Positions 33,701 to 64,000 of a DNA stretch of 64,000 bases are shown piece by piece (the first letter of the stretch is position 1; every line of letters begins with the position of its first letter). The notes below the pieces were generated by a model. That model was not told where the DNA came from. It made no database searches and worked only from the letters and a program-made list of their open reading frames with translations. The stretch lies in NCBI RefSeq assembly GCF_910592395.1, contig NC_088309.1:11162501-11226500 (forward strand), in the 5' to 3' direction. The translations under genes and the position numbers were made by a program. Source of the stretch: Lineus longissimus. Taxonomy: Eukaryota; Nemertea; Pilidiophora; Heteronemertea; Lineidae.

Positions 33701-36082
33701 TACCCACCAGTAGACCTCAATAAAAGGGCTGAATTGGCATTTTATTGGTAACTGCAGTTTGCAAGATTGTAAAAAAACCAATTAGCTAATGTTGCTGTTT
33801 ATCATCTTTACTGTTTTCACTTCCTACATCATTTCATGTTTTGTGACTTATCATTGTCAGTATAATCACTCTTATTTCCAGCTTCATGGAAGACCCATTG
33901 AATCTGAAGACCATCTTGGATGAGTCTGGTGTTGCCCCGTTCATTCCGCTACCCGAGGCTGGGGAAACAATTAGACCTGTCCCCATCCTGTTGGAATGGA
34001 CTCGGCACTGGGACAAGGAGACAGTCAACAGGATCATTCTTGATAAGACACTTCCCTTTGGGGGTGAGTGGTACACATAGTCTCAATCTACAGTGGAACC
34101 TCTCTCATAGTAGTAGAAATGAAAGCCTAGCAATGAAGCCTAAAATATCAAATACTCAGTCAACGTAAGCCTCAATTTAGCAAAACAGTGCATTTAAAAG
34201 ATATGTTAAAGCAAGGCTAGAATTTTACACAATTTTATCATTAATTTCCTTTGCTTTGCCCAGTCAGGTCCTCAATAATTCCTATTTTCCATTTGGCCTG
34301 ACCTAACATAAATTGCATTCTAGATATCAGCCAATGTCAAACCGTCAGCAAGGAAACAGTCTGGAAATACCTGGCAACTTACAATCGACAGAATGAGTTG
34401 ATGAACTGGGTCAGAGCTGCATTCCCTCTCACGGATGAAGCCTCATCTGATCCTGGGTGGCCATATTGTTTACCCGTAACCATGGAGATGATTGATTGCT
34501 TGGAAGAGTGTTCGGAGTTTGTGAGGGAGAATATTTTGGATGAATTGGCGAGGTAACACAAACTTTTATCTCCTGCTGTTTTTTCTCATAAAATACACCG
34601 CAGATAGGGATTTGTGGTGTTTTTATTTGCGGGCGGACTGCGCTTTAACGCTGGCATGGCACACAAGTGGGAAAACGGCGCGGGAAACAGCTATACATCT
34701 TGTAGTGGGGTGTCATCAGAACCCAGTCTAATTTATCGCGTGTAAGTTCCGGCCTCATGTGCAATACCAGTATGATTCCCTTGATTATCATGGTAATCTA
34801 TCATTTAAGCATTTAAGCATTTTCTAATTTGTTCAGAAAATGGTTCTTGGGTTGCGTGCGTACGCAAGACTATATACCCCCTCCCCCCCTCCCCCCTCAG
34901 TGCCTACGTGCCTAATGGATGCTCCCTAAGACCTTTGAATATAACATCAAATTGAGATTCCTCGCACCTGCTGCCCATGCCAAGGCAAGCAGGGGAACCA
35001 ATCCAAGGCCATGGGGAAACTTGAGTATCTCTTTTTTGAACTACCCCACTTTGCTTAAAGACAGCATCAGTTCTCCCAATTGGCACCCGACTGTAGTTGT
35101 ACCCTATCAAACACTCACTGCCACAGTAGAAGAAGACAGATTTTATCAAATGATACCATTTCTAACTCAGGAGAGGTGTGTTCTGCAACGATGAACTCCA
35201 CGACTTCAACAAGATGTTACGGCGGCTGAAACAGGTCCAAAGCATCATGAAAGTCGATGGCCCCATGAAGTCCAAACACTCCCGGGTCTCCATTGATGAC
35301 TACCACGGAAACACCATAGAGTATCTGGTCGGGAATGAACTGATCCCAGCTCTGTACCTTTATTTGGACTTTTATGGGTAAGCCATGTGATGTATTCTAT
35401 TCACTTTGCCGGCGCTCCTAATGATATAGGCCTAACATTTGGAAGTTTTGTGCTATATACAGTAGAACCTCCCTATTACGGACACCGTCTGTACTGACAA
35501 GTGCTGTCCTTAATAGCAAGGTGTTCTTATTTGAGAGATCAAATTGAATGGAAACAACCAATTTGGGACCAAACCTAGTGTCCTTAATTGAGAGGTTGTC
35601 CTCAATAGAGAGGTGTCCGCTAAGGGAGGTTCTACTGTACCAGTCTGCAAAGGTTTTTTTGTGGTTTTATATGTTATCAGGTGTTCACACTAAAAGACTT
35701 CTTGCAACTACCTTTGCATCACCTATGTATATTTCATCACTTTGCTGTTCATTTCTTTAGATAGAGCAACAGCACTAAATAGTCCTGTCATTGCAATGAT
35801 TACATTGTGATTAAAGTCTTTCTAAATTTTAGCATTGATAAAGATCAAGTGGAACATCTTCTCTCTTCAAACAACTTCAATATTCCTTGGGTCCAGATGA
35901 TGTTGAGATTCAGAGATTTAGCCAGGGGTTCAACCGACTCCTCGAAGATGTTGGCTGCAAGTTCCGCAAATGCTGGCCTGATGACTGGTATGGCAGACGT
36001 CAATGTCCATGAGATGATCAAACAGGGACTGTTCATTCCTGCCCTTGCCACCTTATTCTACCAGCCGATCGACTTGAGAAAG
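27748..36082 (+). CDS. SPG11: spatacsin exons 1-13 (N-terminal half)
   Basis: Exons: 27748-27944, 28583-28767, 29216-29431, 29875-30505, 31008-31128, 31642-31792, 32100-32668, 33020-33199, 33441-33622, 33882-34063, 34324-34552, 35171-35377, 35833-36082. All junctions were checked for phase. For exon 5 the acceptor at 31007 (acaatttcag) keeps frame, while an upstream ttcttag at 30970 would introduce a stop. Exon 6 ends at 31792 (gtataa donor), which joins in phase with exon 7. Exon 12 joins as LARRGVFCNDELHDF, closely following vertebrate spatacsin. Confidence 0.88.
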
Positions 36083-39000: not shown

Positions 39001-42000
39001 ACAACATGTCAACATGATGTTATAAGCTGACATGCTTTCTAACAACCGGGCCCTGGATTGAAAAAAGAAACTAATAGAACGTTTCGAATAGCATCCGCCA
39101 TTCCTCATCAGCTGATCTACTGCTGTTGTTGTTGTCGTTGTTTGGTGCGGGAACTTTCGGAAGTATGTCTCGAGTGGGCGGGGTCCCAGGTGCGTGAAAG
39201 TTCCACTCGTCTTGATAACGACAACAGCAGTAGATCAGCTGACTAGGAATGGCGGATGCTATTCGAAACGTTCTGTAAGTTTCTTTCTCAATCCAGTAGT
39301 TATTTCCTTTCATGGAATTACTATGATACCTGGATGACTAATCTTCACAAGGCAGCCAAGAGTTGATAACAAAATACTTGATACAGTGCCTCATTACTGG
39401 CATGCTTCTATTCGCCCAATGACATTGACATTTAAGAAAGGGAAATGAACAGAAAGGACATTTTTACGAATTAGAGAACAACCATGCTGCGATACTTGAA
39501 TAAGTATTGCTAACGTGAGTGGTGCATTGAGAGGGCCTTGGAGCCGAATAAATCAAAAAAGCTTATCGTTTCCATACACAAGTGATGGCCTTTGACAACT
39601 TGTCAAGAAATCATCTATGTCCAATGTAACCCCTCTGGTGCTCACTGTAAAAATTTTCCATCACAAAGTGTAAGTTTTATGTCACAAGATACTGCAAACA
39701 GTTTAAAACATTGTTTTTACCGCAGAATTTCCCATGCAAGTATGAAGGCTCACATCCTGGCCATAAAGAACTTCACCAAACCAGTGATCAGTAGTTCCTG
39801 CGTGGCGTACATTGAAATGCTGGGGCGTGATGGCACCCTGCTGCGAGTCTGCCTGTACGCCGCATCAGCCATATATAGCTACAGGTTACGGGGGATGACA
39901 GGGACATTTGAAGAGCGGAAGGAGACGGAGCGGCTCCATGAGCAAGGAACGAGTAAGTTTGGGGTTCCGCCTTCTCTCGGTGTTAATTCTATTGAGCATT
40001 AGCTTTAATTGGTCCTCTGTTCTGAGTTAATTTTTAATTGGATTGTAGGTGTGATTGTTTCTGCCACTGACTATAGGAAGAGGACATGCTCCGAAGTTGG
40101 TATTTTCTGTCATCGTATGTTGATCAGGGAGTGTTTCCTGTGTGTACAAAGTAGGATACAGGAACTGTTGGAGTAGTCTTTTACATGTAAGAGGGCTCAG
40201 TCCCATGGACATTACAGTCCTACTTACAGTCTGGGGGCAGTATCCTCCTGTATCCATCTTGATCCTTATTTTGAACCACTGGCCTTTCTATTTTGAAATC
40301 ATATCCTCTTTACAGCTGATCTCCTGATGTCTGCATTGAGATGTAGGAAGAAATACTTTCCTGTTGTCCTTGAAGAACTTGAGCGAGCTACTCTGTATAT
40401 GATAGAACGAGACAGTCTCAAACAGTAAGTGAAATCTTTGCCAGTGAAAAATCTAAATACAACATAATGATATTATTCTGTATTACATGTATAGGAGTTC
40501 TGTCTTAGATCAGAATCAAGGATGCTGGTGTTGTGATGTAGTTCTGTCAAAAGCTTTTGCAAATGATGAATTTGTTTCAATTTCAGGTCATCATTTGAAG
40601 CAAGTCTGCGTTGGCAGCCTGTGCTACTCCTGTGCCGCCTTAGCAAGCTCCGCTACAGTACTCTCTACCTGCAGCAGTGTGCCAAGGTTGACAACTGGTT
40701 GCAGTTCATGGCATTTGCCCAGCTTCATCAGTATTCCAGTGATCAGGTAGGTGATAATACATCATGACATGAAGCAGCATTTATGAAGTGCTGTGCAGTA
40801 AAATGTGCAACAAAAGCATCTCTCATCTGGCCATGAAACCAGGGATCGCTGAGTTTGATGTTGAGTGCAGGTCGATTATCAATTCTTGTTGCAGGTCGCT
40901 GCGATTATCAATTCTTGTTGCAGGTCACTGTGATTATCAATTCTTGTTGCAGGTCGATTATCAATTCTTGTTGCAGGTCACTGTGATTATCATTATCAAT
41001 TCTTGTTGCAGGTCACTGTGATTATCAATTCTTGTTGCAGTTTGCTGCATTTATCAATTCTTGTTGCAGGTCACTGCGATTATCAATTCTTGTTGCAGGT
41101 CACTGTGATTATCAATTCTTGTTGCAGGTCGCTGTGATTATCAATTCTTGTTGCAGGTCGCTGCGATTATCAATTCTTGTTGCAGGTCGCTGTGATGCAT
41201 TACTGGCTGACTTTAATTGCAGTGTACTGCCCATTTGACTGATGTTTGTGAGGTATCTAACCTGTCCATTGTATTTAAGCTCTTTGAGATCCTGCACCTC
41301 TTCCCGAGTACCCAGCTCCAGGAACACCTGCACTATGTCATATCGAGTGCAAATGTCTCGTCTCGACTGTCACCGCAGCCCTCTACCAAGATTGACATGA
41401 GGAAGAGTTCATCGTTCATACAGCGCCATTCAGAACTAGTCACGAAAGTGCTAGGCGTCTCCAAGAGTAAAGAAAGGGGTAAGTTGTTACAGTGGAACCT
41501 CTCTTAGCGGACACCTCTCTATTAAGGACAGTAGTTTTAGTCCCAAATTGGTTATTTCTATTCAATTTGACCTCTCTAATCAGGACACCTCTCTATTAAG
41601 AGCACTTGTCAGTCCCAAGGGTGTCCTTAACAGAGAGGTTCTACTGAGTTTCATTCCTCTCAGCAATAAAAACTTGTGCAAATAAGGTCATCAACATGGT
41701 GGTACAGCAGCGATGTAAAAACTGGGCAAAAAGTGGGCAAAAAGTCATGCCAATGTCGATGTCTGTAGGTTAGTGATGTTAAAGGGGTACACCGTTCATA
41801 ATTACTTGTGATCCAATTAAATAGAATTTGTTGGAAATTGGGATTTATAGTACATGTATTTGTATATCTGTGTATACAAAGGCAATGCTAAAAATTATAT
41901 TCAGTATGTATTTACACAATTGAAAGTATTCAAATTCAATTACAAATTCAAAAATTTTAACGAATGGCGTAGGCCTTTTAACACTAGCACAGCCAATATT

Positions 42001-46900: not shown

Positions 46901-49900
46901 GAACAATACTGATGAGGACGTCACCAAGCACACAATAGCAACAATGGAAAAGCTTTTAGATCACTGTTGTCATGGCAACCAGCCATGCTCCAGGGTCATC
47001 ACTGCCTTTAAAATTGCTCAGGTAAATCCTCATTCTTTCAAGCTGCTATCTGTTGTCTGAATGGGACTTGATCACAATCTACAGTAAGACCTCTCAAAGG
47101 ACACCCTCGGGACTGACAAGTGCTGTCCTTAATAGACAGGTGTCCTGATTAGAGAGGTCAAATTGAATAGAAACAACCAATGTGGGACTAAAACTACTGT
47201 CCTTAATAGAGAGGTTGTCCTTAATGGAGAGGTGTCCGCTAAGAGAGGTTCCACTGTAGTAAATTTGTTCATGCATGGCCCTACAACGTAGACTGTGGTA
47301 AGAGCTGACCAATAGTTCAGCATCAAAACCTCCTTGGAGTAGGCCCCACCAAGGTACCCCTTGAGCCAAGTAGAATACACATCCATTTGGCTTGATCTTC
47401 AGTAAAAGAGACCGTTAAAATGGTCTTCCTGTAATGAACCCTCAATTCTTGAAGTTCCTTAGTGAAACTTTACAAATGTTTGTCAATTACATATTTTCAG
47501 ATGCTGAAACACAGGCGTTATGAAGACGTCATCAATGAAGAGGAATATGCCTTGCTCAAAACCATCTTGATGTGTGACCACTCAGATAAGTTCCTCCTCG
47601 CCCGTGACTACATAGTGACGAACAGACTTTCCGACGTGGAAGTCGCCGGGTTTCTGTGTGACATCATCACGCATTCTCTGGCGGTCATCACAAACCAAGG
47701 TATAGCAAGCTGCCATATATTTGCACCCCTTTATTATTGCGATTTGCAAACACCTTGGAAAATTTGGTGATAACGAAGCTTCCCTTAATTTTTTCTCTTT
47801 CAAAAGTAGGACTACAACTCTGTTTTGTCATGGGTCACTTTGAAAACCACCCTTATCATATCGGTACTTCTATTGCATAGAAGAGTTTTTTCGGTTATTT
47901 TAACCAATGTTACTTATAAAAGCTGTTGAGTTTTATTCCATAAACATTTTTTCCTCGAGGTGTCATTTCCTAGTTTCTCCTTCTTGACCTTCCAGAACCA
48001 GAAGTAGCAAAGGCAACAAGTTCGAGCGAATTAGTTTTCAATCCCTTGGAAGATGCCAGTGTTTTTACCTGTTTCATCAAGCTCTGTTCAGATCCCTCGG
48101 TGCTTGGCAACCGTCTGTTGGAGGCAGCTGCGGCGATGTCTAATGACACTGTCACCACGACACAACAACAAGGAGGTAGGTGGTACTTCGTCATCAAAAC
48201 ATTATAGTCCCTTCAGAGAATTCTGCTCATTTGAGAGTAACGATCCAGGTGTAGAATTGCCCGCTTACCCAAAAGCTATTTTAAACTAGGATGATTTCAG
48301 TTCATCTGGTCATCTTTTAAAGGGACAATATAGGCAGCGGCTAGGCAGGCAAGATAAAGTTACACGAGGTCGCCAAAGAGGGTCTCTCACATCTCGCAGC
48401 ATGTCGAAATGATTGACGCTTGTACGAGGAATATATTTAGTGCTGGATCTGACATGACCCAGGGCCCTTGCTGTGTATATTAGTCACCTGGAGATGGCCA
48501 AATTAGCCCCTCTGCTCCTGCCTGTTGTCCCCCTTTTAAGTTGGTGCCAGACAAACTGTCGGGCACCAACTCACACCTGGCAGTCAAATCACAATTTGGT
48601 GCCATACAGTGAGCTTCACCCCTTCCCCGCCTATTTTCAGACTAGCATCACTATTTAGTCATTCATTTACTTATTCGATGATCACGATGAGTTGATTTCA
48701 TTTCAGCTCTCACAATGGAGGTAGAACTCCTAGTCAGGTCACACGAGTGTCACACCATTGCCTGTAATATGGAGGGCATCGCCAGTGTTCTCAGGACAGC
48801 CCGACAGCTCACCAGCAACCTCGCACAGGCAGAAGAATTTACTCTTATGGTAAGGTCTGTCAGTGAGAAGCTGCTTGTCCAAAGTTACATGAATTTCATA
48901 AACATCTACTGCGTCGAAGTTGGGGCCTCTGTGCCATAATTGGTGTTATGGGAAATGGGGTTGATACAAATATGTGACCCGTCACAGCAAAACCAGACAC
49001 ATGTCGCACAGAAGATGAGCCTAAATGACACCAGGAGATAATGGAAGAAATTGATGTGCTCGTATTTCACAAAAGGCAGACAATAGAGAAATGAATAAAC
49101 AGTCCATCTCAACCTGCCAAGCTCAGAGCAACATGCGCCTGGTTTTGCTGTGACGGGTCACATTTATGCACAACACTTGAAAGAAAACTCAGTAGAACTG
49201 AAAAGCTTCAAACTGCTTGGAATCGATTTGTCACCGGCTCGGCACGAGATGATTTTCTATGGCCTGAAAGCTCTCGACAGCACGAGATGATGTTGAGAGG
49301 TTTAGGCAGTAGAAAATCATCTCGTGCTGATCCGGTGACTCGAACCGGTCACTCAGTCGGTTTTCTTATTGTATATAGCTCCCTTCCCAGACACTGAAGG
49401 ACCCACTCTCTATCAAGGACACTTGTTTTGGTCCCACCTTTGGTTGTTTTCATGCAGTTTGGCACCGCTTTTTAATTTCAGATACGGTTGTTGACGGGGA
49501 TTGGTCGATTTAATGAGATGACGTACATCTTTGATCTGCTGAAGTATCACCATCAGTTTGAGTTGCTCTTTAGGAAGGGAATGGAAAAGGTACAGCTTAA
49601 ATCGAAACAATTTGATCAATTAAAAGATGGTCACGATGGCCATTTGTGTAAACATGATGCTTGAATGATGGAATCCAAACAGGCGTACACAGCAGTCATT
49701 AGATTTTAATTGAGAAAACACAAAGTAATGTTGATTTTTGTAATGTGTGCTCTTTAAAAAGTCCTATGAACTTTTTAGGAGGCATCCCTGTTCCATTATA
49801 CCCACTCCCCTCCCAACTTGTTTTCTTTTTTTAGGAAAATAAACTCAAGCTGGCTGTCCTGGACTATCTGAAACGATTTCATCCAACTGACAACGATACC

Positions 49901-51326
49901 TACACAATGGTGTCTTTGCACTTTACAATGTACAGAGAAATTGCACAGATGTTGGAGGAAAATGCTGTCAAGCTGCTCGACTCCCTAAAGAACAAGCCAT
50001 TAGGTAAGCAAGGGCGTCTGAGACTTTGGCGAATGTCCCCTTGATAGATGGACATGCACCAGTGTTGCAATCACCAGCTCAGAAATGTCAATGTCAATGT
50101 CACCTCCTCCAGTTTCTAAGGAAGTGAACGCGAGTGAAGTCTCCGCCTAGTCCTAGTGGAAACTCTTCCTAAACATCTGCAAACTTCATGGGGACAGTCT
50201 CCTTCTTGATCATACAGCTTATCAGTGAATAATTATCTTGATTAAGCACTCGATCTCGGCCAGTTCATGAGCACAACTGTCTTCGAGAGGCATCTTAAAA
50301 ACTATCACTTTGCTTGCTCTAACATCTTATTGTATTGTGAAGCGATGTTGACCACATTTTTGGGGAATCGCAGTCATTCATGTTACAGCTCAATATAAAT
50401 CCTGTTACAGATTCCAGCAGTGATACCCAGTCAAAACTCAAGGACATCCAGCAGTACTTCTGCGATGCTGCTGAGAGTTATATCAAACAAGAATGCCTGA
50501 GGCATGCGCAGCACTGCATCAGACAGGCGCGGTTGGTCTCCTTGCAGCTTCACCTCATCAGCTCTGGAACCACTGTCCTGAACCTAGACTCGGACGGCTT
50601 GACCAAGTTCATCACAAATCATGGAAAGTTCTTCGAGGTAGATCAGGCTGATCATTAGGAAAACTGGCAGTTCCCAGAGTTGAAGAACCATCCTTCCCCC
50701 ACTGGCTGACCAGGTGAAACCTGACCAAGCAACATATCTAAGCTATTTGTGAATGAAAACAGAAAAAGCTGATTGTGATATTTTGAATTCATTCCAGTTA
50801 TGAAAATAGAAAGCATAAGCCAAACAATAGGTCTCGATTTTGTTCTTTCAGGCGTTTATTGTTGCAGAGGCATATCACAGAAAGTCCGACTGGGCAGCTG
50901 CGGTATGCCAACAAGTGGCCATCAATGGAGACTTTACTTACCTAAAAGATCTCAAGTCGTTTATACATCTAACCCCGAATCTTTTGGCGGAAATAGTGGA
51001 CAGGTATGTATGGGACACAAAACGATGTCACCTCATTCTCAGAATTGAAAGTGGATGTGACAAGGTCACAGCTAGCTAGGATACTGGGACATTCGTGCGT
51101 GCATTCTAATCTCATGATTGTGATATCTCCTCTCATTTGTTTCAGGTTTAAGAGGGAAGCCAACAAACCAAGCCAAGGTAACAACAACATGAAGAGAATC
51201 CTGAGTTATTGTCGAGACATCCAGATGAAATATAAACTGGCTACTTCACTTGGATTGACTGATGTGGTCATGGAAATGTACAAGGGCGATGGCAGTGCTT
51301 ATCTTAATGACACAGTGTCTGCATAA
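27748..51326 (+). CDS. SPG11: spatacsin
   Basis: Spatacsin is a very large cytosolic/endolysosomal scaffold that works with spastizin (ZFYVE26) and the AP-5 adaptor in lysosome recycling; human SPG11 loss causes hereditary spastic paraplegia. Here 37 exons with GT-AG borders give about 2,536 codons (human protein about 2,440). The order of conserved blocks matches the family along the whole length: N-terminal beta-rich region, SASLADQVCCLN...RQLDTVAFFLK, the long alpha-solenoid, RLLTGIGRFNEMTYIFDLL, HAQHCIRQARLVSLQLHL, AEAYHRKSDWA and the final MKRILSYCRDIQMKYKLA block of the Spatacsin C-terminal domain. The first ATG is 27748; ATG 27760 has the better context (caaaATGGCGGAC) and is probably used. 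One junction (43951 to 44819) is out of phase by one base. Exon coordinates are in the three block entries. Confidence 0.93.
27753..27768 (+). promoter_or_regulatory. TISU/YY1-like start element of spatacsin
   Basis: The sequence caaaATGGCGGAC around ATG 27760 matches the SAASATGGCGGC element, which couples a short 5' UTR to accurate initiation and overlaps a YY1 site. It favours ATG 27760 over 27748. The match is visible; its function here is inferred. Confidence 0.5.
28236..28346. mobile_element. small inverted-repeat element, spatacsin intron 1
   Basis: Arms cactgctggccaagacaaac (28236) and gtttgttttggccagcagtg (28324) are nearly perfect reverse complements with an ~70 bp loop. Confidence 0.6.
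29611..29748. mobile_element. foldback MITE with TTGTTAGAAAGC ends, copy 1
   Basis: A near-perfect palindrome: ggttgttagaaagcgtgtta at the left and its complement ending ctttctaacaacc at the right. The second copy is at 38862-39056. Spatacsin intron 3. Confidence 0.85.
30547..30740 (+). mobile_element. CAGTRGAACC MITE family, copy 2
   Basis: A diverged left end (ggtagatcctctctattaag) and right end ggttccactgtc. It begins about 40 bp after spatacsin exon 4. Confidence 0.8.
31403..31587 (+). mobile_element. CAGTRGAACC MITE family, copy 3
   Basis: Starts tacagtggaacccctctatt and ends ggaggttctactata. It lies in spatacsin intron 5, about 55 bp before exon 6. Confidence 0.85.
35458..35639 (+). 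mobile_element. CAGTRGAACC MITE family, copy 4
   Basis: A complete copy: tacagtagaacctccctatt to ggaggttctactgta, with the full internal order of repeated taatagagaggtgtcc words. Spatacsin intron 12. Confidence 0.9.
36425..36438. repeat. GA microsatellite
   Basis: A short (ga)n run in spatacsin intron 13. The surrounding 36.09-36.8 kb holds no recognised exon. Confidence 0.7.
36819..36982 (-). mobile_element. CAGTRGAACC MITE family, copy 5
   Basis: Complete copy in reverse orientation, tacagtggaacctcccttag to aggttctactgta. It lies in the same intron as copy 6. Confidence 0.9.
37099..37272 (+). mobile_element. CAGTRGAACC MITE family, copy 6, abutting an exon
   Basis: Complete copy, tacagtagaacctctctatt to ggttccactgta. 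Its right end is 2-3 bp from the acceptor AG (37273-37274) of spatacsin exon 14, so the 3' splice-site region of that intron is transposon sequence. Confidence 0.9.
37275..43951 (+). CDS. SPG11: spatacsin exons 14-24 (central solenoid)
   Basis: Exons: 37275-37481, 38052-38118, 38632-38797, 39726-39952, 40316-40424, 40587-40746, 41280-41478 (or from 41223), 42132-42352, 43123-43308, 43494-43610, 43780-43951. Recognisable blocks are FDPTHLYGWKQLNPG, VNLPHFADPEMQAKY, THGRPSFAF and LQQCAKVDNWLQFM. Exon 20 has two in-phase acceptors; the upstream one (ttaattgcag) would add 19 residues. Exons 14 and 16 begin immediately after transposon ends. Confidence 0.85.
37515..37752 (+). mobile_element. AAGGNTACRCC MITE family, copy 1
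   Basis: Left end aagggttacgcctttcgtaa, right end gaacggcgttggcctttaaa; the ends are inverted repeats. Other copies are at 41778-41985 and 56735-57143. Confidence 0.75.
38190..38622 (-). mobile_element. CAGTRGAACC MITE family, copy 7, rearranged, abutting an exon
   Basis: Contains a ~198 bp tandem duplication: the words gttcttggttcaaagcccatc and ttttccctctctat occur at about 38210 and 38403. The interior has several copies of taatcaggacacctctc. The right end ggttctactgta stops 10 bp before the acceptor of spatacsin exon 16. Confidence 0.8.
38862..39056. mobile_element. foldback MITE with TTGTTAGAAAGC ends, copy 2
   Basis: Same ends as 29611-29748, expanded internally by three copies of the ~34 bp unit catgctgacatgttgctata. 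It lies end to end with the next foldback. Confidence 0.85.
39053..39297. mobile_element. long foldback element, arms ~105 bp
   Basis: 39053-39165 and 39190-39297 are reverse complements at about 90% (acgtttcgaatagcatccgc in the left arm). The spacer is about 25 bp. Spatacsin intron 16. No coding content. Confidence 0.85.
40866..41190 (+). repeat. minisatellite of 3'-splice-site-like 29 bp units
   Basis: Eleven copies of caattcttgttgcag, nearly all followed by gtc, with a basic period of 29 bp (one 24 bp and one 35 bp unit). It lies in spatacsin intron 19, ending 33 bp before one possible exon 20 acceptor (ttaattgcag at 41222). Confidence 0.9.
41488..41647 (-). mobile_element. CAGTRGAACC MITE family, copy 8
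   Basis: Starts tacagtggaacctctcttag only 10 bp into spatacsin intron 20, and ends aggttctactga. Reverse orientation. Confidence 0.88.
41778..41985 (+). mobile_element. AAGGNTACRCC MITE family, copy 2
   Basis: Ttaaaggggtacaccgttcat at the left and aacgaatggcgtaggcctttta at the right; inverted ends and TTAA-like borders. Spatacsin intron 20. Confidence 0.75.
42866..42955. mobile_element. short mariner-like MITE, copy 1
   Basis: A hairpin with ends ggtggcccagaattatttt and tttctgggccaccctgta and a caatagaattctattg centre. The sister copy is 44576-44668. Ends of this kind resemble Tc1/mariner termini. Confidence 0.75.
43954..43987. repeat. CT microsatellite after spatacsin exon 24 donor
   Basis: (ct)n of about 15 units starting 3-5 bp after the GT donor of exon 24. 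Confidence 0.85.
44039..44374. mobile_element. TTAA-bordered MITE candidate, ~336 bp
   Basis: Begins tttaaagggtaactcgtgtc and ends catagtatcactttaag; the ends are weakly inverted and carry TTAA. It has no ORF. Spatacsin intron 24. Confidence 0.5.
44576..44668. mobile_element. short mariner-like MITE, copy 2
   Basis: Tacagggttgcccagaattat at the left, ataattctgggccaccctgta at the right, with a TA at each border. Hairpin. Confidence 0.8.
44819..51326 (+). CDS. SPG11: spatacsin exons 25-37 (C-terminal domain)
   Basis: Exons: 44819-45182, 45554-45715, 45867-46145, 46406-46547, 46849-47021, 47501-47699, 47996-48175, 48707-48849, 49482-49589, 49835-50003, 50411-50637, 50852-51003, 51146-51326. 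All junctions inside this block keep frame. This is the best-conserved part, and the TAA at 51324-51326 falls where family members end. Confidence 0.9.
47080..47258 (+). mobile_element. CAGTRGAACC MITE family, copy 9
   Basis: Complete copy, tacagtaagacctctcaaag to gaggttccactgta. Spatacsin intron 29. Confidence 0.88.
48318..48538 (+). mobile_element. TTAA-flanked MITE family, copy 2
   Basis: Ttttaaagggacaatatagg to tgcctgttgtccccctttta. Same orientation as 18042-18239 and clearly homologous throughout. Spatacsin intron 31. Confidence 0.85.
48546..48608. repeat. small hairpin, gttggtgccag
   Basis: Gttggtgccagacaaactgt is followed by its near complement gggcaccaac, and ttggtgcc recurs 40 bp on. 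Confidence 0.5.
48971..49164. mobile_element. MITE, ~194 bp, TIR ~25 bp
   Basis: Tgtgacccgtcacagcaaaac at the left and ggttttgctgtgacgggtcac at the right. Spatacsin intron 32. Confidence 0.8.
49231..49338. mobile_element. inverted-repeat element, ~108 bp
   Basis: Arms tcaccggctcggcacgagat (49231) and atctcgtgctgatccggtga (49319). The short cacgagatgatg word recurs between them. Confidence 0.7.
49402..49470 (-). mobile_element. CAGTRGAACC MITE family, copy 10, fragment
   Basis: Only ctctctatcaaggacacttg to cagtttggcacc remains, 11 bp before the acceptor of spatacsin exon 33. Confidence 0.7.
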
Positions 51327-52744: not shown

Positions 52745-55700
52745 ATGTATTCTCGTATGCGGTGAGTACAGAAGAGTCTGTCTTATACTGAGGTTGAGAT
52801 GTCGTCAATATATTTAGTTGTCCTAAAGAATACTTTGCTTTGGGGCGAAAGAAACCAGGCATATGGCATATAATATATCATCCGAATCCATGCAATAGGC
52901 CTATCATGGTTGACATGAATAATTTTGCGTGATACCCTACGTACAAGCTCTGCTGTGTTGTGTAGGCCTAGTACCTGAGTGTGGCCCACTGCATGCCACA
53001 TTGTCTGTGTGATTGCCAGTTGGGAACCACTCATAGTCATAGTAAGCAGTATGTCATGATCAGCCAACCAATCTATAAACTCATCCCAAATAATATATCG
53101 GTACACATCAGACTCATGTATCTCTCCTTGTTTAATATAGCGTAGAAAGATTGGGCAACAAAGCCCAGTTACCTCCAGCATGTTCAACACCAGTGAAAAG
53201 CATACTTGGTCCTGCCCCAACATCAACGAGCCTGTCTGATGGCTTGAAGGGTGAAAGTCTCGTAGATAAGTAAGTATTTTCATGCTTTGTTTCAGAGTCA
53301 TAGGCCCTAGTAAATATTGAAATTGACCTGAAAAATTGTGTATTTGGCTCTAGGGGATACTATATAAACTGATACAGTGTAGACTTAACCACCTAAAAAA
53401 AGTATCTTCTCAATAACAATCAATCAGACGCGACCAAAATTATATTTCTTTTTCATCCTTTCTTAATCCCTTACACTACAGCATCTACTTGGCAGTGAAA
53501 GGCAACCGCGTCAGCGAACTTCTTCAACTTCTTCAAGAGAAAAAACTGGGGGACAAGGTCAAGTTATGGATCTTGATGCTGTCTGCTCGTTACGGCAGGG
53601 TTCATTTTGCCCAGGCAATGGTTGAGGCAGGGCTTGGTCTAGATCTTCAAGACGTCAACGGAAACACGGCAGTCCTACTCGCAGCTCAATACGGCCATAC
53701 AAACATGGTGAACTATCTTGTGAAAACAAAGTGTAACCCGAGCGTCAAGAACAAAATATCGCGGGAGGCTCTTCATATGGCTTGTGAACGAGGGCATCCG
53801 GACTGTGTCAAGATTTTGCTGGGTGTGGTCGAAGACATCAATGCAGTTGATGGGACAAAAGAACCACCGATTGTTCTTGCTGCACGCCACGGCCACCACG
53901 ATGTCGCCAGAGTCCTCATTGATGCAAAATGTGATATCGAGAACCCGAGCCAAATGGACCAGAATCAGAGACGGGCGATTCACTTCGCCTCCGTCTCTGG
54001 GTATGACGAGTTTTTGGATGTGCTGTTGCAGGCTGGGGCTGATCCGGATGTTCCAGACAGGGCAGGAAATTCTCCTCTTCTCCTTGGTGCAACGTGAGTG
54101 TATATCCTTTGGGGAATTCAAATTAGCTCCACGGTCGTGCAAGTTGAATCAAAATTTCCAGATTTTCATCAGGTGCATCTTGGTTACTGCTCGGTCTCAA
54201 TGGTTACTTATCATTGTGCATCATTACCGGATACAAAATCTCGAAATTTCATTCCGTCTTCTGCTGATTGTGGTGTTTATTTGAAAAAGGCCTCGAATGA
54301 GTATTCAGCAGTGACATTGTATTTTCTTAGGCTTGGTGTCTGCAGCAGCGGTACCAGCGCAGTGGAAGGGAGTCAGCCTCATGATCAGGAGGTCGTGGGT
54401 TCGACTCCCGGCCCAGTCACTGCTAAGTATGGTGATCTTTTATGTAGCTGTTCATGTTTCTATTGTATGAGATATATTGTAGATACAGCACTGATCTGGT
54501 AGTTTCCAATTCTTGAATATACCAAATCTGTTTATAGAAATGTTCTATCTGCAATTCTAAGCATGGATTTTCATCTTATATATTTTCAGGTGGGGCCATA
54601 GTGCAGTAGTGAGGTCGTTACTGAAGTGCAAAGTGGATGTGAACAGGAAAAACACCCTCGGTTTGTGTGCTGTGATAATGACATCTGCCGAAGGACACCG
54701 TGAAATTCTTCGCCAACTGCTCGATGCTGGTGCTGATCCAGATGCTGTGAATCATATGAGAGATCCTGCAATATTAGTCGCGTGTCAAAACAGCAATACT
54801 GACTGTGCCGAAGTGCTAATAGAAAACGGCTGCGATATGGATTTATATGATGAAAAACATGGGAGGACAGCTCTAACCTGGGCTATCGACAATGGACTGA
54901 AGGAACTAGCCAAGAAAATGATTGAGAAGGGTGCAGACGTCGACGCTGGTCGAACAGGCTCTCCACTTGAGGCAGCGTGCAAAAAGGAAGATGAAGGAAC
55001 TGTTGACCTGCTTCTCGGCAAAGGTGCCGATGTGAATAAGAGGTTACTCCCTGAAGAAACAACCGCAGTGATGTTTGCGCTCGAGACCGGCAACGTTGAG
55101 ATATGCAGGAAGTTATTGAATGCTGGAGCTGATCCGAATCTTCCAACGATATATCGTGTGACGTGTTTGATGCTTGGCACGGACCGCTCGGGTGCCGAGG
55201 TCACAAGACTGTTGCTGGAGAAGGGTGCAGATGTTAATTATAAGGGCTTTCAGGGCTATTCTGTGATGTTCGCAGATGAGGTTGATGTCGTGCGTGAACT
55301 CCTTGCTGGGGGTGGTAATATTAACCAGCAGGACGATGCTGGAAATACACCTCTGATCCGAGCAGCGACATACACTCTTAAAGGCCTGGTTAAATTCTTG
55401 ATTAAAAACAACGCCAACGTGAACATCAAAGGTATGTCCTACACCGCCTGCGAACAAGCCCTCATTGAAGATCAGGGTTATGACATTGCCAAAATGTTGA
55501 TCAAGGCTGGGTGCGATTTGAGTTTCCTGCAGCGCTGGGAGAGGACTTGTTATCCCAAGACTCTGGAAGACAGGTTGGAACGGATTGAGTGGCTGAAGGA
55601 ACAAGCAAAGCTTCCACCGAGCCTGACCCACTGCTGTAGGAAGTCTATTCTCAATGCACTTGCGACAAACATCCCAAAGAAAATCGATGAGCTCAATTTG

Positions 55701-55895
55701 CCCAAAAATTTGAAAGACTATCTTCATTATGTCGACTTGGATGAGGATGAGAATGGGAAAGCTGACGGTGAAGGAAGTGATGATGATAGTGATAATGACG
55801 ATAGTGGGGATGATGGTGACAATAATGGTGATGATGATGGTGATGCTGGAGAAGATGCTTCTTCTGATGAGGCTGGGGAAGAAGGTACTAGATAA
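52745..55895 (+). CDS. ankyrin-repeat/SOCS-box protein (ASB-like) with acidic tail
   Basis: Exons 52745-52761, 53141-53269, 53482-54093, 54590-55895; all GT-AG, phases match; 687 aa. ASB proteins are substrate receptors of Cullin5-Elongin B/C ubiquitin ligases. About residues 50-560 are ankyrin repeats (NGNTAVLLAAQYGHTNMVNYLV, LLDAGADPDAVN, LLLEKGADVNYKG and others). Residues 597-636 fit a SOCS box: BC box SLTHCCRKSI (SLxxxCxxxI), then a Cul5-type stretch LNLPKNLKDYL. The last ~50 residues are mostly Asp/Glu/Gly/Asn. The start is chosen because exons 1-2 join in frame; an upstream ORF precedes it. An alternative donor at 55884 joins in frame to an exon at 58575-58642. No vertebrate ASB subfamily is assigned. 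Confidence 0.85.
54333..54424 (+). mobile_element. tRNA-derived SINE head
   Basis: Contains a polymerase III A-box-like cagcgcagtgg (54355) and a perfect B box ggttcgactcc (54398), 43 bp apart, with tRNA-like aggtcgtgggttcgactccc. No complete cloverleaf was drawn, so a SINE rather than a functional tRNA gene. It lies in the ASB-like gene's last intron. Confidence 0.65.
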
Positions 55896-56734: not shown

Positions 56735-57143
56735 ACGCTGTTTGTAATTACTTGTCAGGTCGTCCAGTAAAATAGAAATCCACTAATACACAATGCCGTA
56801 GTGCAGTTATTATGAATATGGATTTATTGAAAAATTGTATTGGTAGAACAGTAGAACCTTTCTATTAAGGACACCCCTAGGACTTACTAATGCTGTCCTT
56901 AATAGAGGTGTCCTGATTAGAGAGGTCAAATTGAAAACAACCAATTTGGGACCAAAACTAGTGTCCTTAGAGAGGTTGTCCTTAATAGAGAGATGTCCGC
57001 TAAGGGAGGTTCCACTGTATTTGTCTATCTGTCTACACAATGGCACTGTTGAAATTTATATTTAGTATGTATTTTTGCAATTGGACATTTTAAAATTCAA
57101 TTACAAATTCAAAATTTTTTACGAACGGCGTTGGCCTTTAAAA
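56735..57143 (+). mobile_element. AAGGNTACRCC MITE family, copy 3, split by another MITE
   Basis: Left half aaggatacgctgtttgtaat to about 56847, right half 57020-57143 ending gaacggcgttggcctttaa. The CAGTRGAACC element 56848-57019 is nested inside. Confidence 0.8.
56848..57019 (+). mobile_element. CAGTRGAACC MITE family, copy 12, nested
   Basis: Acagtagaacctttctatta to aggttccactgta, inserted in the element at 56735-57143. Confidence 0.88.
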
Positions 57144-57426: not shown

Positions 57427-57899
57427 AGATTTGTATATTTTAAATGTTTTATAAAATATGTGCCATAAAACTTAACTATATATGATATTTAGAGCTAACC
57501 ATAGCCTGCTCAATCGAAAGAGAGATGCCAAAATATTTATGATTTATTGTTGTACGATTCACTGTGGTACTACTTCAAACATTTGTGCTATTTTGTTTCG
57601 ATAAATTTTCTTTGGACTACATGTTGATTTAGGCAGCAATTAATACTAACATTCCTTTTTCACGAATTAGACATGCATTGTTAACAACTATTTCAACCTA
57701 GTGCTTTAGCTAGAGCTTCCATTAAATACACTTTACATACTTTTAGTTGTGCAGCTTTTTTATCGTATGAAATTTGTGTTCAAGCTAGAGACAAGCAGAG
57801 AGATGCTTGTAATGATGGCCTATGATGCAGGTCAAAATGCTCTCATAATCAGTGTGGTGAAAATAGTTGGAGATATACTGTAGTAGCCAATCTGATTAA

Positions 57900-58490
57900 G
57901 TCAGGTTAAAAGACATAACCAGAATGTTGTCTCAATCGGGCTGTGTTAATGAAAGACACAGGCAGGAATGATGTCACAATCAGTCTGTGGCCTAGAGACG
58001 GGGAGAAATTCGATCCCTGCCAACTTTCTGGGGACATGAGGTAACAGCTGAAAATGTCTCAGCAAGTCTGAAAATATCTGGAGACACAGGCTGAAATTGA
58101 CAGAGACCGACATTCACAATCAACCGGGCTACTATTATTGGGAGACCTGGCTGAGCAGTCTCAGCCTTTTTGATAATACTGTTTGAGAGAGCACATATAT
58201 CGGCCTGACTGGGAGACCAAGGCTTAAAAGGTATGTGGAATGCTGTGTCAAGCAGTCTGATAATATTGAGAGACGCCGGTTTATATTCTGTCACAATCAA
58301 CTTGTTTGGGTCGAGTTCTTTTGAGACACAGGCAGGTCATAGCTTGGCAGCTACGAAGCTGACAATCACTTGCCTGAGCACAACCCTTGAATATCTGAAG
58401 GGGACACAACCGACAAGGGTGGGAAGACCATATATATCGTATCATGATCAGTCTCTATGCTTGGGACCACGCCGCACCATAATCTGATTC
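57900..58490. repeat. degenerate tandem repeats, gagacacaggcagg words
   Basis: Several 60-75 bp units with variants of atcagtctg and gggagaccnaggc. Strongly diverged. Confidence 0.4.
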
Positions 58491-58574
58491 TGACTAGAGT
58501 ATGAATAATATTCTGACTAGAGTATGAATAATAATGAGCCTGATGTCTTACTCTTGTCTCTTGTTATTTTTCAG

Positions 58575-58642
58575 CAAACCTTGAAGAAATGATGGGCTAT
58601 CTGCAACTGATGCAGCAACTTCAGCGTCTCCAACAAGAATAA
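58575..58642 (+). CDS. possible alternative last exon of the ASB-like gene
   Basis: After ttatttttcag, the reading ANLEEMMGYLQLMQQLQRLQ, then QE and stop follows. It joins in frame to a donor inside exon 4 (gaag|gtacta, 55884), replacing the last three residues with a 22-residue Gln/Leu-rich, probably helical tail (706 aa in total). The donor is weak-to-moderate. It is supported by phase and open frame only. Confidence 0.45.
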
Positions 58643-59600
58643 TCGAATCATCAACCTAGGCGCACATGCATGGAACAGTGGACGCCGGCGCACCCTTTAT
58701 ACTGTCAAAGTCGGCCAGGAGCCGTCCCGCTCTCGAGATGGCTACATTCTTACATCATGCATTGTATGATAGCGACAGCTCCTAGACGGCTTCACAGTAA
58801 TGGAAAGTTCTTGAAAACTATTACTAATGGATCCTTTCAACATTGTTGGGAAGAATGAGTCCCTCTGAACAAATGAAACTATGCAAAATCCTTGTTCTTC
58901 TTGAGCTTCTTAGGGCTGACATTCTTCTTTTGGGTCGACACTTCTTTGTTTCTTGGAGAGAGGTGCATGCCCTGGAAAATCTCATGCCGATCTAACAACG
59001 TTGTGCATATTAGCATGGAGACTTTAGGATTGATGTTCACCGCCGGTTGATAGTAGGCATGGAAAATCTTTGCTCGCTGATGGAAGGGCCAAGGGAGGCG
59101 CCTAACAGAGGGACTGCAAGGAGGCACGGGAAGGATGATATAAGTTTGATTTCATTTGCTACAGCGGGTTATTTTAGGAAATCTCAACGTCCCCCTGAAC
59201 ATCTCTGATGAATGTTTGCCCTCGACCTATCACTATGCCTAGTTTTCTGAATGTCAATTTTTATCTTCGCAAGTGCCCATCACTTTTTTCCATCGTCGGT
59301 CTATTATGGGCCAATAGGTAGCTTTAGTGATGGAACATTGGACGTTTGGGCACAGCTACAGCCGGGAGCAACAGAAACAGAGTGTTGAGCAGAGAATGCG
59401 TACACTCCTGAGGCAGTCCTTCATCATCCGATGCCAAACATAGCCTTCCTATATATTTGGAAAGTAGAGGGACGATTCATATCCAATGCGTCCCGAAGTG
59501 TACTAGTGACAATATTCTTGCACTTGCTCACAGTATATTCTATTCCACCACGGTCATGATGCACACTATATAGAACTAAAGAAATAAGTAGTATATATTC
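58643..59600. other. intergenic, no gene seen
   Basis: Contains the second copy of the short inverted-repeat family at 58975-59070 (first copy 7799-7896). Otherwise nothing recognised. Confidence 0.45.
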
Positions 59601-59616
59601 ATAGAAAATTGAGATT

Positions 59617-59628
59617 TTTATTTTTATT
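59617..59628 (-). terminator. likely polyadenylation signals of the FAAH-like gene
   Basis: Two adjacent TTTATT words on the plus strand, AATAAA on the minus strand, about 225 bp past the stop codon. Confidence 0.4.
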
Positions 59629-59851
59629 TGCCATTTGCGCACTGAAGCTGAGACCAACAGAAAAGATATTAGTGAGGTTTAGATTGAAAACATATACATT
59701 TTGTACGTATTAAACATCAAATTCAACAGTGAAAAGCAGGATCAATACGTCACCGAATGGCTACTGGTAATCAAGCATGAGATGAGCCCGGCCATTACAC
59801 TGGCATTTAGGTGACTAACTGAGTAGAGTAACCAGTATATATTAGTTTTTA

Positions 59852-61654
59852 TCACTTGCTCGAAAACTGACCTATTTCATCCTGAAGTTCCTTCATGACC
59901 CTCAAACACACTTCACCTCTCCAAGGGAGACTGACACACTGCACATTGACAGGCAGATTCTCGGAACCACTTGCAAATCTCCGGACCAGTTTCGATATCA
60001 GATCGGTAGCAGGGTAACTAGTCTCCAATTCCTCATCATCTGCGGCCGTCACCCGGGTTATAGGGATAGACCCTGCTGGAAAATCCACCAGATTGTACAG
60101 GGCCGGGTAGGAGGACATCGCCCTGCTTGAGACCTCGTTCGAAAGTGCTGGGGTTGCGAAACCAGGACAGATGACAGCATCCAGCTCTGAATCCTGCCAC
60201 TTCAATAGAAATTCCTCCTTGTAGTCGTCGATCATACCAGACAGAACCCAGTAATCGTAAATACTCCCAAGTCTCAGTCCCGCGGACAACATTTTCGAGA
60301 CTGTAGGACACTGTGGACGGAGCATGTTGGAAATGATCTTCCGAACGAATTCTGGAATCATCAGGCGATAATACAGCTGTCCTGCCGAGCTGTCGATCTT
60401 GTCATGACGGATCTCCTCGAAGAAACTCCTGCCGTGGTCGCCGATCATGGCATTCACGAACAGTACCTCCATGGCGTATTTCACCCTGGGTGGTTGCCAA
60501 GGCACAAGGGTGTGCCCTTGTCTTTCCAACGCCTTCTTGGCGAGCTCCACTGCCCTGACACATGCTGGAACTGGTTGAACATAGCCATCGTGAATGTAAT
60601 AACCGATGCGTAATTTTCTATTGTCCTCAAAAAGTCCTGTGTTGAATGGCAATGGCGGGATAGCGAGATCAGCTGCAAATAACTCTGGACCAAGGAGAGA
60701 CCTAGTAGCCATTACGAGTGCTTTCACATCCCTTGCCAAAGGACCTATGGATGTGAAGATTTGGGGTGGAATCTTGGAGGATGCATGAATCCCTGATCTA
60801 CTGAGGCGAAGACCTGTTGGCTTGAAGCTAGCGATACCACACATACTCGCTGGGATACGAATTCCACCGCAGACGTCAGTCCCGAATCCTAAACAGGAGC
60901 CACCCACACTGATCAACGCGCCTTCTCCCCCAGCAGCACCACCCGGTGTCCTGCTAACATCAAGAGGGTTAACTGTCCTCCCGAAGATGGGGTTACTGCA
61001 TTGGTAACTGAGAACGACCTGTGGTACATTTGTCTTCATGAACGGCACAGCGCCTAGCTTTTTCAGCAAGTGAACAACAAGACAGTCCTTTGAGCAGACG
61101 TCACCAGCATATTTGGAAGCACCTGATGTCGAGACGTATCCCTTGATGGGTAGGCACTCTTCTAAACTCACTGGAATCCCGTGCAAGGGACCAAGAGGGA
61201 CATCGCTACGGTCACATTCTAAAGCTACTGCCTCAGCCCCAGAAATTGGCTCAGTGACACAATTGATCTCAGTGTCTACGTCAAGGGCTTTCCACTGAAA
61301 CGCGTGCAGTACGTCCACTGCTTTCAGTTGCTGTGATTGAAGTTTCTCTACCAGTTCTTCGAAAGATTGACAGAGAATATGCTCCCATTTCGCCTTAGAA
61401 TTCATCTTGGCCAAATTGTCTCGCAACACCGTTTTTGAATCTCGCGCCATTTCTGACTTCAGCGTGCGCATCGTGTAAAGCCTGTACCATTGGTACAGGT
61501 AGTTTGCGCACTGTCCTAGACACACAGCGCCAATGGTCCCCACGGTACAGGACAGAACCCAATGTTCCTTCCAAAATACCTCGCTTGAGAGTTTCTTTGT
61601 CACGTATCTTGAGCCATACTTGAGCACGAGCTCATCCACGTCATATTTACCCAT
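59852..61654 (-). CDS. FAAH-family protein lacking the catalytic triad (predicted pseudoenzyme)
   Basis: A single 600-codon exon, the usual length of FAAH1 (about 579 in mammals). FAAH hydrolyses anandamide and other N-acylethanolamines at internal membranes. The N-terminal membrane helix is at about residues 34-54; the amidase-signature core follows. Conserved blocks are LGPLHGIPVSL, TPGG..GGEGALI, GGSCLGFGTD, CGIASFKPTGLRLS, LDAVICPGFATPA and the C-terminal VQCVSLPWRGEVCLRVMKEL. The triad (rat Lys142, Ser217, Ser241) maps to Glu165 (codon at 61162-61160), Ala240 (60937-60935) and Gly264 (60865-60863), with identical 75- and 24-residue spacing. Ser218 is Ala241, and an oxyanion-hole Gly is Cys262. 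Amidase activity by the family mechanism is therefore not expected. The frame is intact and the neighbouring blocks are conserved, which argues against a dead pseudogene. Head to head with a FABP gene. Confidence 0.93.
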   Translation of the reverse strand: MGKYDVDELVLKYGSRYVTKKLSSEVFWKEHWVLSCTVGTIGAVCLGQCANYLYQWYRLYTMRTLKSEMARDSKTVLRDNLAKMNSKAKWEHILCQSFEELVEKLQSQQLKAVDVLHAFQWKALDVDTEINCVTEPISGAEAVALECDRSDVPLGPLHGIPVSLEECLPIKGYVSTSGASKYAGDVCSKDCLVVHLLKKLGAVPFMKTNVPQVVLSYQCSNPIFGRTVNPLDVSRTPGGAAGGEGALISVGGSCLGFGTDVCGGIRIPASMCGIASFKPTGLRLSRSGIHASSKIPPQIFTSIGPLARDVKALVMATRSLLGPELFAADLAIPPLPFNTGLFEDNRKLRIGYYIHDGYVQPVPACVRAVELAKKALERQGHTLVPWQPPRVKYAMEVLFVNAMIGDHGRSFFEEIRHDKIDSSAGQLYYRLMIPEFVRKIISNMLRPQCPTVSKMLSAGLRLGSIYDYWVLSGMIDDYKEEFLLKWQDSELDAVICPGFATPALSNEVSSRAMSSYPALYNLVDFPAGSIPITRVTAADDEELETSYPATDLISKLVRRFASGSENLPVNVQCVSLPWRGEVCLRVMKELQDEIGQFSSK

Positions 61655-61978
61655 TCTGCTGAGCCAAGCAGCGGCTATTTCTCCAAGTATTCTTTACGGT
61701 TATATATATTCTACATTTAGAAAGCCAAATAAAGTTTATTGTGATCGTAGTTTGTCAGATATTGACCTTTTTTAACAGTTTTTTACCACAAAATAAAATT
61801 TTTCCTTTTCGTGGGCGCAGCCATTTTTAGATCACGTGCCTGCCTGATAGCTTGCCTTGTGATAAATTCATACAGGAAACATGTACATTAATGATCTAGA
61901 ACCAGTCACACCGGTTAATTTTCATCAATCTCAGGTTTTGTTTTTGCCGTTCTGTACTTGTCACGAATATCTGCCGAA
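61655..61978. promoter_or_regulatory. shared (bidirectional) upstream region of FAAH-like and FABP genes
   Basis: Only 324 bp separate the two start codons on opposite strands. It includes a palindromic E-box CACGTG at 61833-61838 and an adjacent gcagccattttt word (YY1-like). Core promoter positions cannot be set from sequence alone. Confidence 0.6.
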
Positions 61979-63802
61979 ATGAATGACTTCCAAGGAACCT
62001 GGATTCTCGAGAGTACAGATAACTTCGATGGGTATATGAGGAAGTTAGGTAAGAATGGTTGATTTATTTGCAAATGATACAAAAATCTGTTTTTCCACCC
62101 AGTCCCATGCATGATGCAGGTGCTTGTCACATGTGCGGCATTCACAATGCCTGGCACATTGCCAACATTCAAGTCCTGGAGTTGTTCTCTTCTATTTCTA
62201 ATCCATCTAAACCACAACATGATGTCGTCACTGTGCATAGCTTTGGTACCTGCTACGGCGTTCATCATGACAACTTGACGTAGGCCAACTGGACGAACAA
62301 AAATCGAAGACAACATGATGACAGATGATGAACTAGCGGAGGGATTGATTCATTTTTGTCTGGAATAAATAAACAAAAAATATTTGGAACTTGTCTTCTA
62401 TTTTACATAAATAATGTAGCCATTACGAACGTTGCACGATATTTAATCATCGTGGGAAGATTTTGTGTATTGATGGGAATTGTCATGACCATGTAACTGA
62501 AGAATGCGTAACAATGTGATGCAATTTACACTTGCACTTGCACTGTTGCAGTCAAAAAGTCCCCTTGTGTTGGTTTGTTCTTCTTTTATGATTTTGATGA
62601 TATAACCTACACAAATGTAGCCTCAAATTCTAAAAAATATGAAAACTACAAAAATTGCCCTTGCAATAATTACAATTGCAGGTGCACTCCTCGAAACTCG
62701 TGCACTGTGATAACTAATATGGTTACCAAACAACAAATTGTTCACACTGCCAAAAACATGCTGGTTTTTCTAATTGAAGTTAGGGAAGGGCAGGTGTGAG
62801 CTTGGGGGTCAGACTTGTAGTCTCCATATACCACCAATTGGGTTATGTTTGTCTACAGAAGAGACACTTATTGTTCACTTTGCAGAGATGTGGAGCACAC
62901 GTGAGTAGGATTCAGTTGGAAGTTTCACTATACAAGACTTAAAATAGAACACCATGGTCACAATGATGACTCAGTTCAGTGGCCTCCCTCCATAAATAGC
63001 TCTCACTCTCAGGCTATTGCATTGAATTGAATTGAATGATCAGGATTACATGATTATACATTCTCAAAAGCTATGTAATGCTCTCAGTCTTATGTAAGCA
63101 ACCCACTCAATTTTTTTGTGTGCCGAGTTATTTTTGCCTCATAAAATTCTTTCTTGTTTTTCCAACATTTTGAGTCGCCTTGCCTCCACCATCCTGACTC
63201 AATCTCATGCGTTTGCCACTATCAAAACCTTGCGGGTCAAGATGTGCCTCCATGCACAAAATCATACTTATGTACCTTATATAGTTCTCGAATCATATTC
63301 CACAATAAAATTGTTCACAGCCCTTTGATTAATGGTATGTTGTCCCTAAACTGTTGATGCCAGCCATGTTCTGCTAACCAGAAGACTGTTCTGTTCTTCT
63401 TTCGGGTGAGGGGGGGGCTGTCTGGTGGTGGTGGTGGGGAGGGGGGAATCCCTGGTGGTGGTGGGGGGGAATCCCTGGTGGTGGTGGGGGGGAATCCATT
63501 GATAGATGAAACATGGCTTGTTTTGCTTCAAGTATTAAATTTTGAAATGCTCACTTAAAAAATTACATTATTACTACATAAAGCAATTTCATGGTGACCT
63601 CTGCATTTCCAAAACAGGTGTGAACTTCATTATGCGAAAGCTTGGCAACCTGGCGAAACCCACCCAAGAGATCAAGGTCAACGATGAGGGAGAAATTTAC
63701 ATCAAAACAATCACTAGTAGCACCATCGGTAAATGGTCGGAGCTCACTTTCAAATTGGACCAGGAGTTTGATGAAAAGACAATAGATGGGAGACAAGTCA
63801 AG
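61979..63802 (+). CDS. fatty-acid-binding protein, exons 1-2 (partial)
   Basis: Exon 1 is 61979-62048 and exon 2 is 63618-63802; the phase 1 and phase 0 junctions are those typical of FABP genes. Exon 1 reads MNDFQGTWILESTDNFDGYM, the classic FABP start (F.GTW.L..S.NFD.YM). Exon 2 reads NLAKPTQEIKVNDEGEIYIK, followed by SELTFKLDQEFDEKTIDGR. FABPs are ~130-aa cytosolic ten-stranded beta-barrels that carry long-chain fatty acids and related lipids, in mammals including N-acylethanolamines. Exon 2 is about four codons longer than usual, with extra residues near SSTIGKW. Exons 3 and 4, with the C-terminal Arg-x-Tyr ligand contacts, lie beyond the window. The subtype cannot be assigned. Confidence 0.93.
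62049..63617. other. FABP intron 1, no further gene
   Basis: AT-rich; it contains a G-rich repeat at 63405-63495 (three copies of ggggggaatccctggtggtg-like units). A minus-strand ORF of 133 codons overlapping exon 1 and the start of this intron (61915-62316) has no recognised features. Confidence 0.5.
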
Positions 63803-64000
63803 GTGAGGGATTTTTTTCCCCCCTCCCCATCCCCCCAAATCCCCTTCAATTCCAACAGATGTGACATATTTTTTTTAAAGTGTCACCATGGTTCTGAGAG
63901 ATACATGTATTTTCACTGGTCGTGGCAATGTGATGAAAATGAAATGCACTGCAGTTTTATAGACTAAAGAAATATTGATTTAGCCCCGAGATGAATGATG

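Follow-up and report, generated by a model that had tools for sequence, protein, structure and literature searches.

Can a member of the FAAH family that has lost all its catalytic residues be retained as a protein, and what would such a protein do? The question is raised by a locus in a 64,000-nucleotide stretch of Lineus longissimus DNA (contig NC_088309.1, positions 11,162,501 to 11,226,500), called the window here. It touches upon an existing dispute. The idea of an inactive FAAH acting as an anandamide carrier was proposed for FLAT and then challenged (PMC3817039), and the movement of anandamide through cells is likewise disputed. A full-length FAAH relative without catalytic residues, situated beside the gene of a carrier protein, would make the question testable without leftover hydrolysis.

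The gene in question is an intronless open frame of 600 codons on the minus strand (59852..61654; ATG at 61654, stop at 59852). The sequence-only reading had reported this frame with no strand given, and the frame is borne out; the plus-strand reading of 59852-61654 contains many stops. Its product had also been taken for a FAAH homologue of the amidase-signature family. This assignment holds, as the Pfam Amidase profile PF01425 matches the ORF over its full length (profile 1-445 of 445, E 1.6e-87), and the identity to the FAAH sequence of 1mt5, which we take to be rat FAAH, is 42% in the alignment. The solved structures nearest to it by sequence are FAAH1 entries (4hbp and 1mt5, E about 1e-123), the animal FAAHs in this comparison being PDB sequences only. 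With NCBIfam, the protein matched 26 families, and among the 25 listed all matches lay under their cut-offs. A second FAAH-like copy was not found within the window, where the best tblastn row besides the gene itself had an E of 1.1.

At the catalytic positions, alignment to FAAH places Glu165 (codon GAA, 61160..61162, minus strand) at Lys142, Ala240 and Ala241 (GCT GCT, 60932..60937, minus strand) at Ser217 and Ser218, and Gly264 (GGA) at Ser241. Every one of these residues had been read correctly, and the spacing of the catalytic positions, 75 and 99 residues, is equal to that of FAAH. The Lys-Ser-Ser triad is thus absent, with Glu165, Ala240 and Gly264 in its place. The ORF is an enzyme-family homologue without catalytic residues, which is how a pseudoenzyme is defined, and with it the amidase signature family gains a clean case in which the whole triad is gone. 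The ORF is not classed as a FAAH enzyme, since the triad was looked for and is absent; the protein is probably unable to hydrolyse amides. An assembly or sequencing error is ruled out by inference, since the changes affect four separate codons and leave the frame open.

How rare these replacements are was seen in 29 reference amidases, composed of the 16 references described below and 13 further amidases from viral contigs. Ser241 is found in 29/29, whereas Ser217 and Ser218 are found in 28/29, with Thr instead in a single sequence for each position. The lysine is likewise found in 29/29, a count biased in its favour because one pattern in each of two of the three source scans for viral amidases demands Lys. 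The change is not restricted to the triad. The oxyanion hole of FAAH is made up of Ile238-Gly239-Gly240-Ser241 (PMC4481349). This Ile-Gly-Gly-Ser stretch has become Val-Cys-Gly-Gly in the ORF, a change that was absent from the earlier list of substitutions; the oxyanion glycine Gly239 is replaced by Cys262, and Cys262-Gly263-Gly264, at Gly239-Gly240-Ser241 (oxyanion hole and nucleophile), occupies 60863..60871 on the minus strand. Since a cysteine precedes the nucleophile position by two residues and a glutamate stands at the lysine, it can be asked if the chemistry has changed instead of vanishing, with Cys262, Glu165 or another residue of the emptied pocket serving a new reaction. However, none of the 29 reference amidases (0/29) has Cys at the Gly239 column, which is occupied by G, A, V or L, and all 29 keep Lys and Ser241. 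Such a change of chemistry is considered very improbable.

Conservation in the rest of the protein was judged from an alignment of 16 references, namely the FAAH sequence and 15 prokaryotic amidases. The latter were found by tblastn with the window protein as query, which makes no demand for catalytic residues in its matches, and were hand-picked among the 60 matches listed, 1170 records having matched in all. There are 22 columns invariant in these references, of which the ORF keeps 18 and loses four, and the four are exactly K142, S217, S218 and S241. The chance that four random losses among 22 columns land on the four catalytic ones is 1 in 7315. When each of the 16 references was left out in turn, 0 to 7 losses per sequence were counted, with zero at the four catalytic columns by construction; the maximum of 7 belongs to the animal FAAH set against otherwise prokaryotic sequences. 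A further 19 columns are conserved in 15/16 references, and the ORF differs at 7 of them. Six of these are lineage differences, because FAAH itself is the odd one there; the remaining one, Trp208 of FAAH, is Leu231 in the ORF and is a loss of its own. In the 29-reference set, the strictly invariant columns number only 8, and two of these, K142 and S241, are lost in the ORF.

This pattern has to be weighed against a simpler account, in which the locus is a pseudogene or retrocopy of recent origin: a copy free of introns that has lost its catalytic residues and is drifting, with no stop gained so far. Mammalian FAAH has many introns and the FAAH-like ORF has none, which is in keeping with a retrocopy, and a single genome underlies the comparison. 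On the other hand, the loss of exactly the four catalytic columns out of 22 has a low neutral probability. In a neutral simulation, which started from the present gene and introduced point mutations at random (2000 runs per level, no indels), 2% substitutions left the frame open in 0.26 of runs, 5% in 0.04 and 10% in 0.0015. Retention of the 18 columns together with a change in three or more of the four catalytic codons was seen in at most 0.001 of runs at any level. Against drift also stands the GC content of the ORF, which varies by codon position (0.544/0.426/0.527), and the gene is flanked by candidate signals of its own: an AT-rich, TATA-like stretch that precedes the ATG by 46 bases (61700..61711, minus strand) and an AATAAA hexamer, resembling a polyadenylation signal, 224 bases past the stop (59623..59628, minus strand), both of putative function. 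Moreover, no pair among the direct repeats listed for 57500-64000 resembles a target-site duplication flanking the gene, although decay could have erased an old one. A neutral pseudogene is disfavoured by the 18/22 column pattern and by the simulation, and we regard this account as quite improbable. The loss pattern and the open frame, in the one genome at hand, argue for lost catalysis with continued constraint elsewhere. The earlier proposal of a pseudoenzyme is therefore upheld in this respect: a complete and selective loss of catalytic residues within an open frame agrees with a 'pseudoenzyme' and only poorly with a 'decaying pseudogene'.

If the protein is retained, its shape becomes important. 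A structure model built from 14 sequences reached a pLDDT of 67 and a pTM of 0.69; it is weak (pLDDT <50) across residues 396-469, and 185/600 residues lie below 50. A single-sequence model was discarded at a pLDDT of 31. In Foldseek, the best 24 rows obtained with the predicted model are FAAH entries (E 6.6e-42 to 1.4e-39), while VIA-align gives Z up to 48.6 for some other amidases, over fewer residues, and about 41-42 for FAAH. The protein presumably adopts the FAAH fold and may retain a pocket for lipids. Support for a folded, lipid-holding pseudoenzyme is also drawn from PDB titles, because Ser-to-Ala mutants of related amidases still fold and hold ligand: malonamidase E2 S131A with malonamate (1o9o) and hydrazidase S179A with substrate (5h6s), the substituted residues being, we assume, the catalytic serines.

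The way into the pocket is another matter. In FAAH, Phe432 and Trp531 form the gating paddle, and Asp403 and Arg486 belong to the access channel (PMC4481349). Here, Phe432 is replaced by Met, Trp531 by Ile and Asp403 by Gln, and Arg486 is kept, so that one of the four is retained; identity is as low as 26% over the part aligned with FAAH 401-450. Owing to these changes in the paddle and at Asp403, and to the 26% match, the lipid preference may differ or be lost. Towards the N-terminus, the most hydrophobic 19-residue stretch covers codons 32-50 (61505..61561, minus strand; mean Kyte-Doolittle 1.47), where model confidence is low. It is a possible membrane helix, by which the protein would be anchored.

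What is new at this locus is a divergent FABP gene, whose start codon lies 324 bp from that of the FAAH-like ORF. The gene is on the plus strand, head to head with the ORF. Exon 1 spans 61979..62048 (ATG at 61979; GTAAGA after 62048) and exon 2 spans 63618..63802 (AG before 63618, GTGAGG after 63802), and the two join in frame to give 85 residues; later exons would fall outside the window. These exons match PF00061 (E 2.2e-9, 38.1 bits against a cut-off of 23), which places the product in the lipocalin/FABP domain family, and their best solved match in the PDB is ReP1-NCXSQ (E 2.7e-20). The stretch between the divergent start codons (61655..61978) is a putative bidirectional promoter. A sigma-70 promoter scan was set aside as a bacterial test. 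Mammalian FABPs are described as carrying anandamide to FAAH (PMC3976407), and an invertebrate example is the FAAH activity of mussel haemocytes, which is inhibited by URB597 (PMC8125337). The neighbour resembles the cytosolic FABPs in carrying PF00061; it differs from them in being known from exons 1 and 2 only. Its presence, unknown to the sequence-only reading, favours a role in lipid handling for the FAAH-like protein, though the head-to-head spacing of the two genes may be coincidental.

Taken with the catalytic losses, this neighbourhood leads to the reading preferred here, to which we assign a probability of about 0.45: the ORF would encode a retained, full-length, FAAH-derived pseudoenzyme that binds lipids of the N-acylethanolamine type without hydrolysing them and shares them with a co-expressed FABP. 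In such a scheme, the FAAH-like gene would be expressed together with the FABP gene. The protein, having the FAAH fold with its lipid pocket, would sit anchored at the membrane and there bind or hold N-acylethanolamines or fatty acid amides. The bound lipids would then be exchanged with the FABP instead of being degraded.

The main rival gives the retained protein another task. FAAH is a homodimer, and a catalytically dead relative could pair with an active FAAH encoded in the same genome, altering its activity, location or stability by protein contact and binding little lipid of its own. The loss of the catalytic residues with the other invariant columns kept would be expected of such a regulator as well, and active myotubularin phosphatases are regulated by inactive partners (PMC11314389). 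The FABP neighbour, however, points to lipid handling instead, and regulation by pairing is held to be somewhat unlikely.

The lipid-binding pseudoenzyme can also be imagined in a more elaborate form, in which one short bidirectional promoter drives both the FABP and a dedicated non-hydrolysing FAAH, and the two form a module for storing N-acylethanolamines or channelling them between the membrane and the FABP. This extension is unlikely as it stands. If true, it would mean that a gene of its own encodes a counterpart to FLAT in its claimed role. FLAT (FAAH-like anandamide transporter) is a mammalian FAAH-1 splice form lacking residues 9-76, for which binding and transport of anandamide without hydrolysis were proposed; Leung et al. 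reported that FLAT has a residual activity, abolished by mutation of the catalytic serine, and that it is not expressed in the tissues they examined (PMC3817039). As a FAAH-derived, putatively non-hydrolysing binder, the ORF comes closest in idea to FLAT. The latter is a truncated splice form, whereas the ORF is a separate full-length gene in which the catalytic residues themselves are lost.

In comparison with FAAH proper, the full amidase domain, the identity to 1mt5 and the predicted fold are shared, and perhaps an N-terminal membrane helix, but all catalytic residues, one oxyanion glycine, the paddle residues and Asp403 are replaced. A precedent exists in plant Toc64 and its mitochondrial relative, amidase-signature proteins of organelle protein-import complexes that 'most probably lack enzymatic activity' (PMC8393822). 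Both are, however, plant import proteins and not of the FAAH type, and they are likened to the ORF by description alone. In the openly licensed literature searched, no FAAH-type or amidase-signature pseudoenzyme was found in print; where FAAH papers of that literature name pseudoenzymes, in the portions of text available, these are other proteins. Similarly, a head-to-head arrangement of FAAH and FABP genes was not found there, as judged by titles and the beginnings of abstracts.

Relatives were also sought elsewhere. None was confirmed in bacterial and archaeal genome contigs, nor in viral contigs, for which the query was the window protein or A1, and the altered motif PGGAAGGEGA had 0 matches in viral contigs. 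In the amidase-motif scans, a relative was present in 0/240 of the stretches listed (ORFs of at least 300 residues, phmmer E 1e-5). The gene region, compared with plasmids at the nucleotide level, gave no match. Twenty phage records matched with identity <60% and were left out of the analysis.

The remainder of the window holds several other features; scans of the whole window with Rfam and for tRNAs returned nothing. An exon encoding a spatacsin C-terminus lies at 50341-50655 on the plus strand (PF14649, E 2e-20). Judged by eye, plus-strand ORF pieces from about 29 kb onwards may belong to the same spatacsin-like gene; two of them, at 29853-30506 and 32084-32734, matched no Pfam family. Further along the plus strand is an ASB-type gene with ankyrin repeats followed by a SOCS box (53417-54094 and 54561-55892), which, like the spatacsin-like exon, indicates animal DNA. 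Reverse transcriptase fragments of retroelements (RVT_1) are present on the minus strand at 9180-10088 and 24105-24626. Similar ORF pieces, SGTSLSGHLSIKD and related ones, recur on both strands, for example at 35421-35666 (minus), 41455-41682 (plus), 47097-47414 (minus) and 56813-57055 (minus), and probably constitute a dispersed repeat family; tandem units of 17-18 bases recur near some of them. A minisatellite with a 37-base unit is seen at 12888-13832, in about 26 copies, and again at 14425-14796, in 10 copies.
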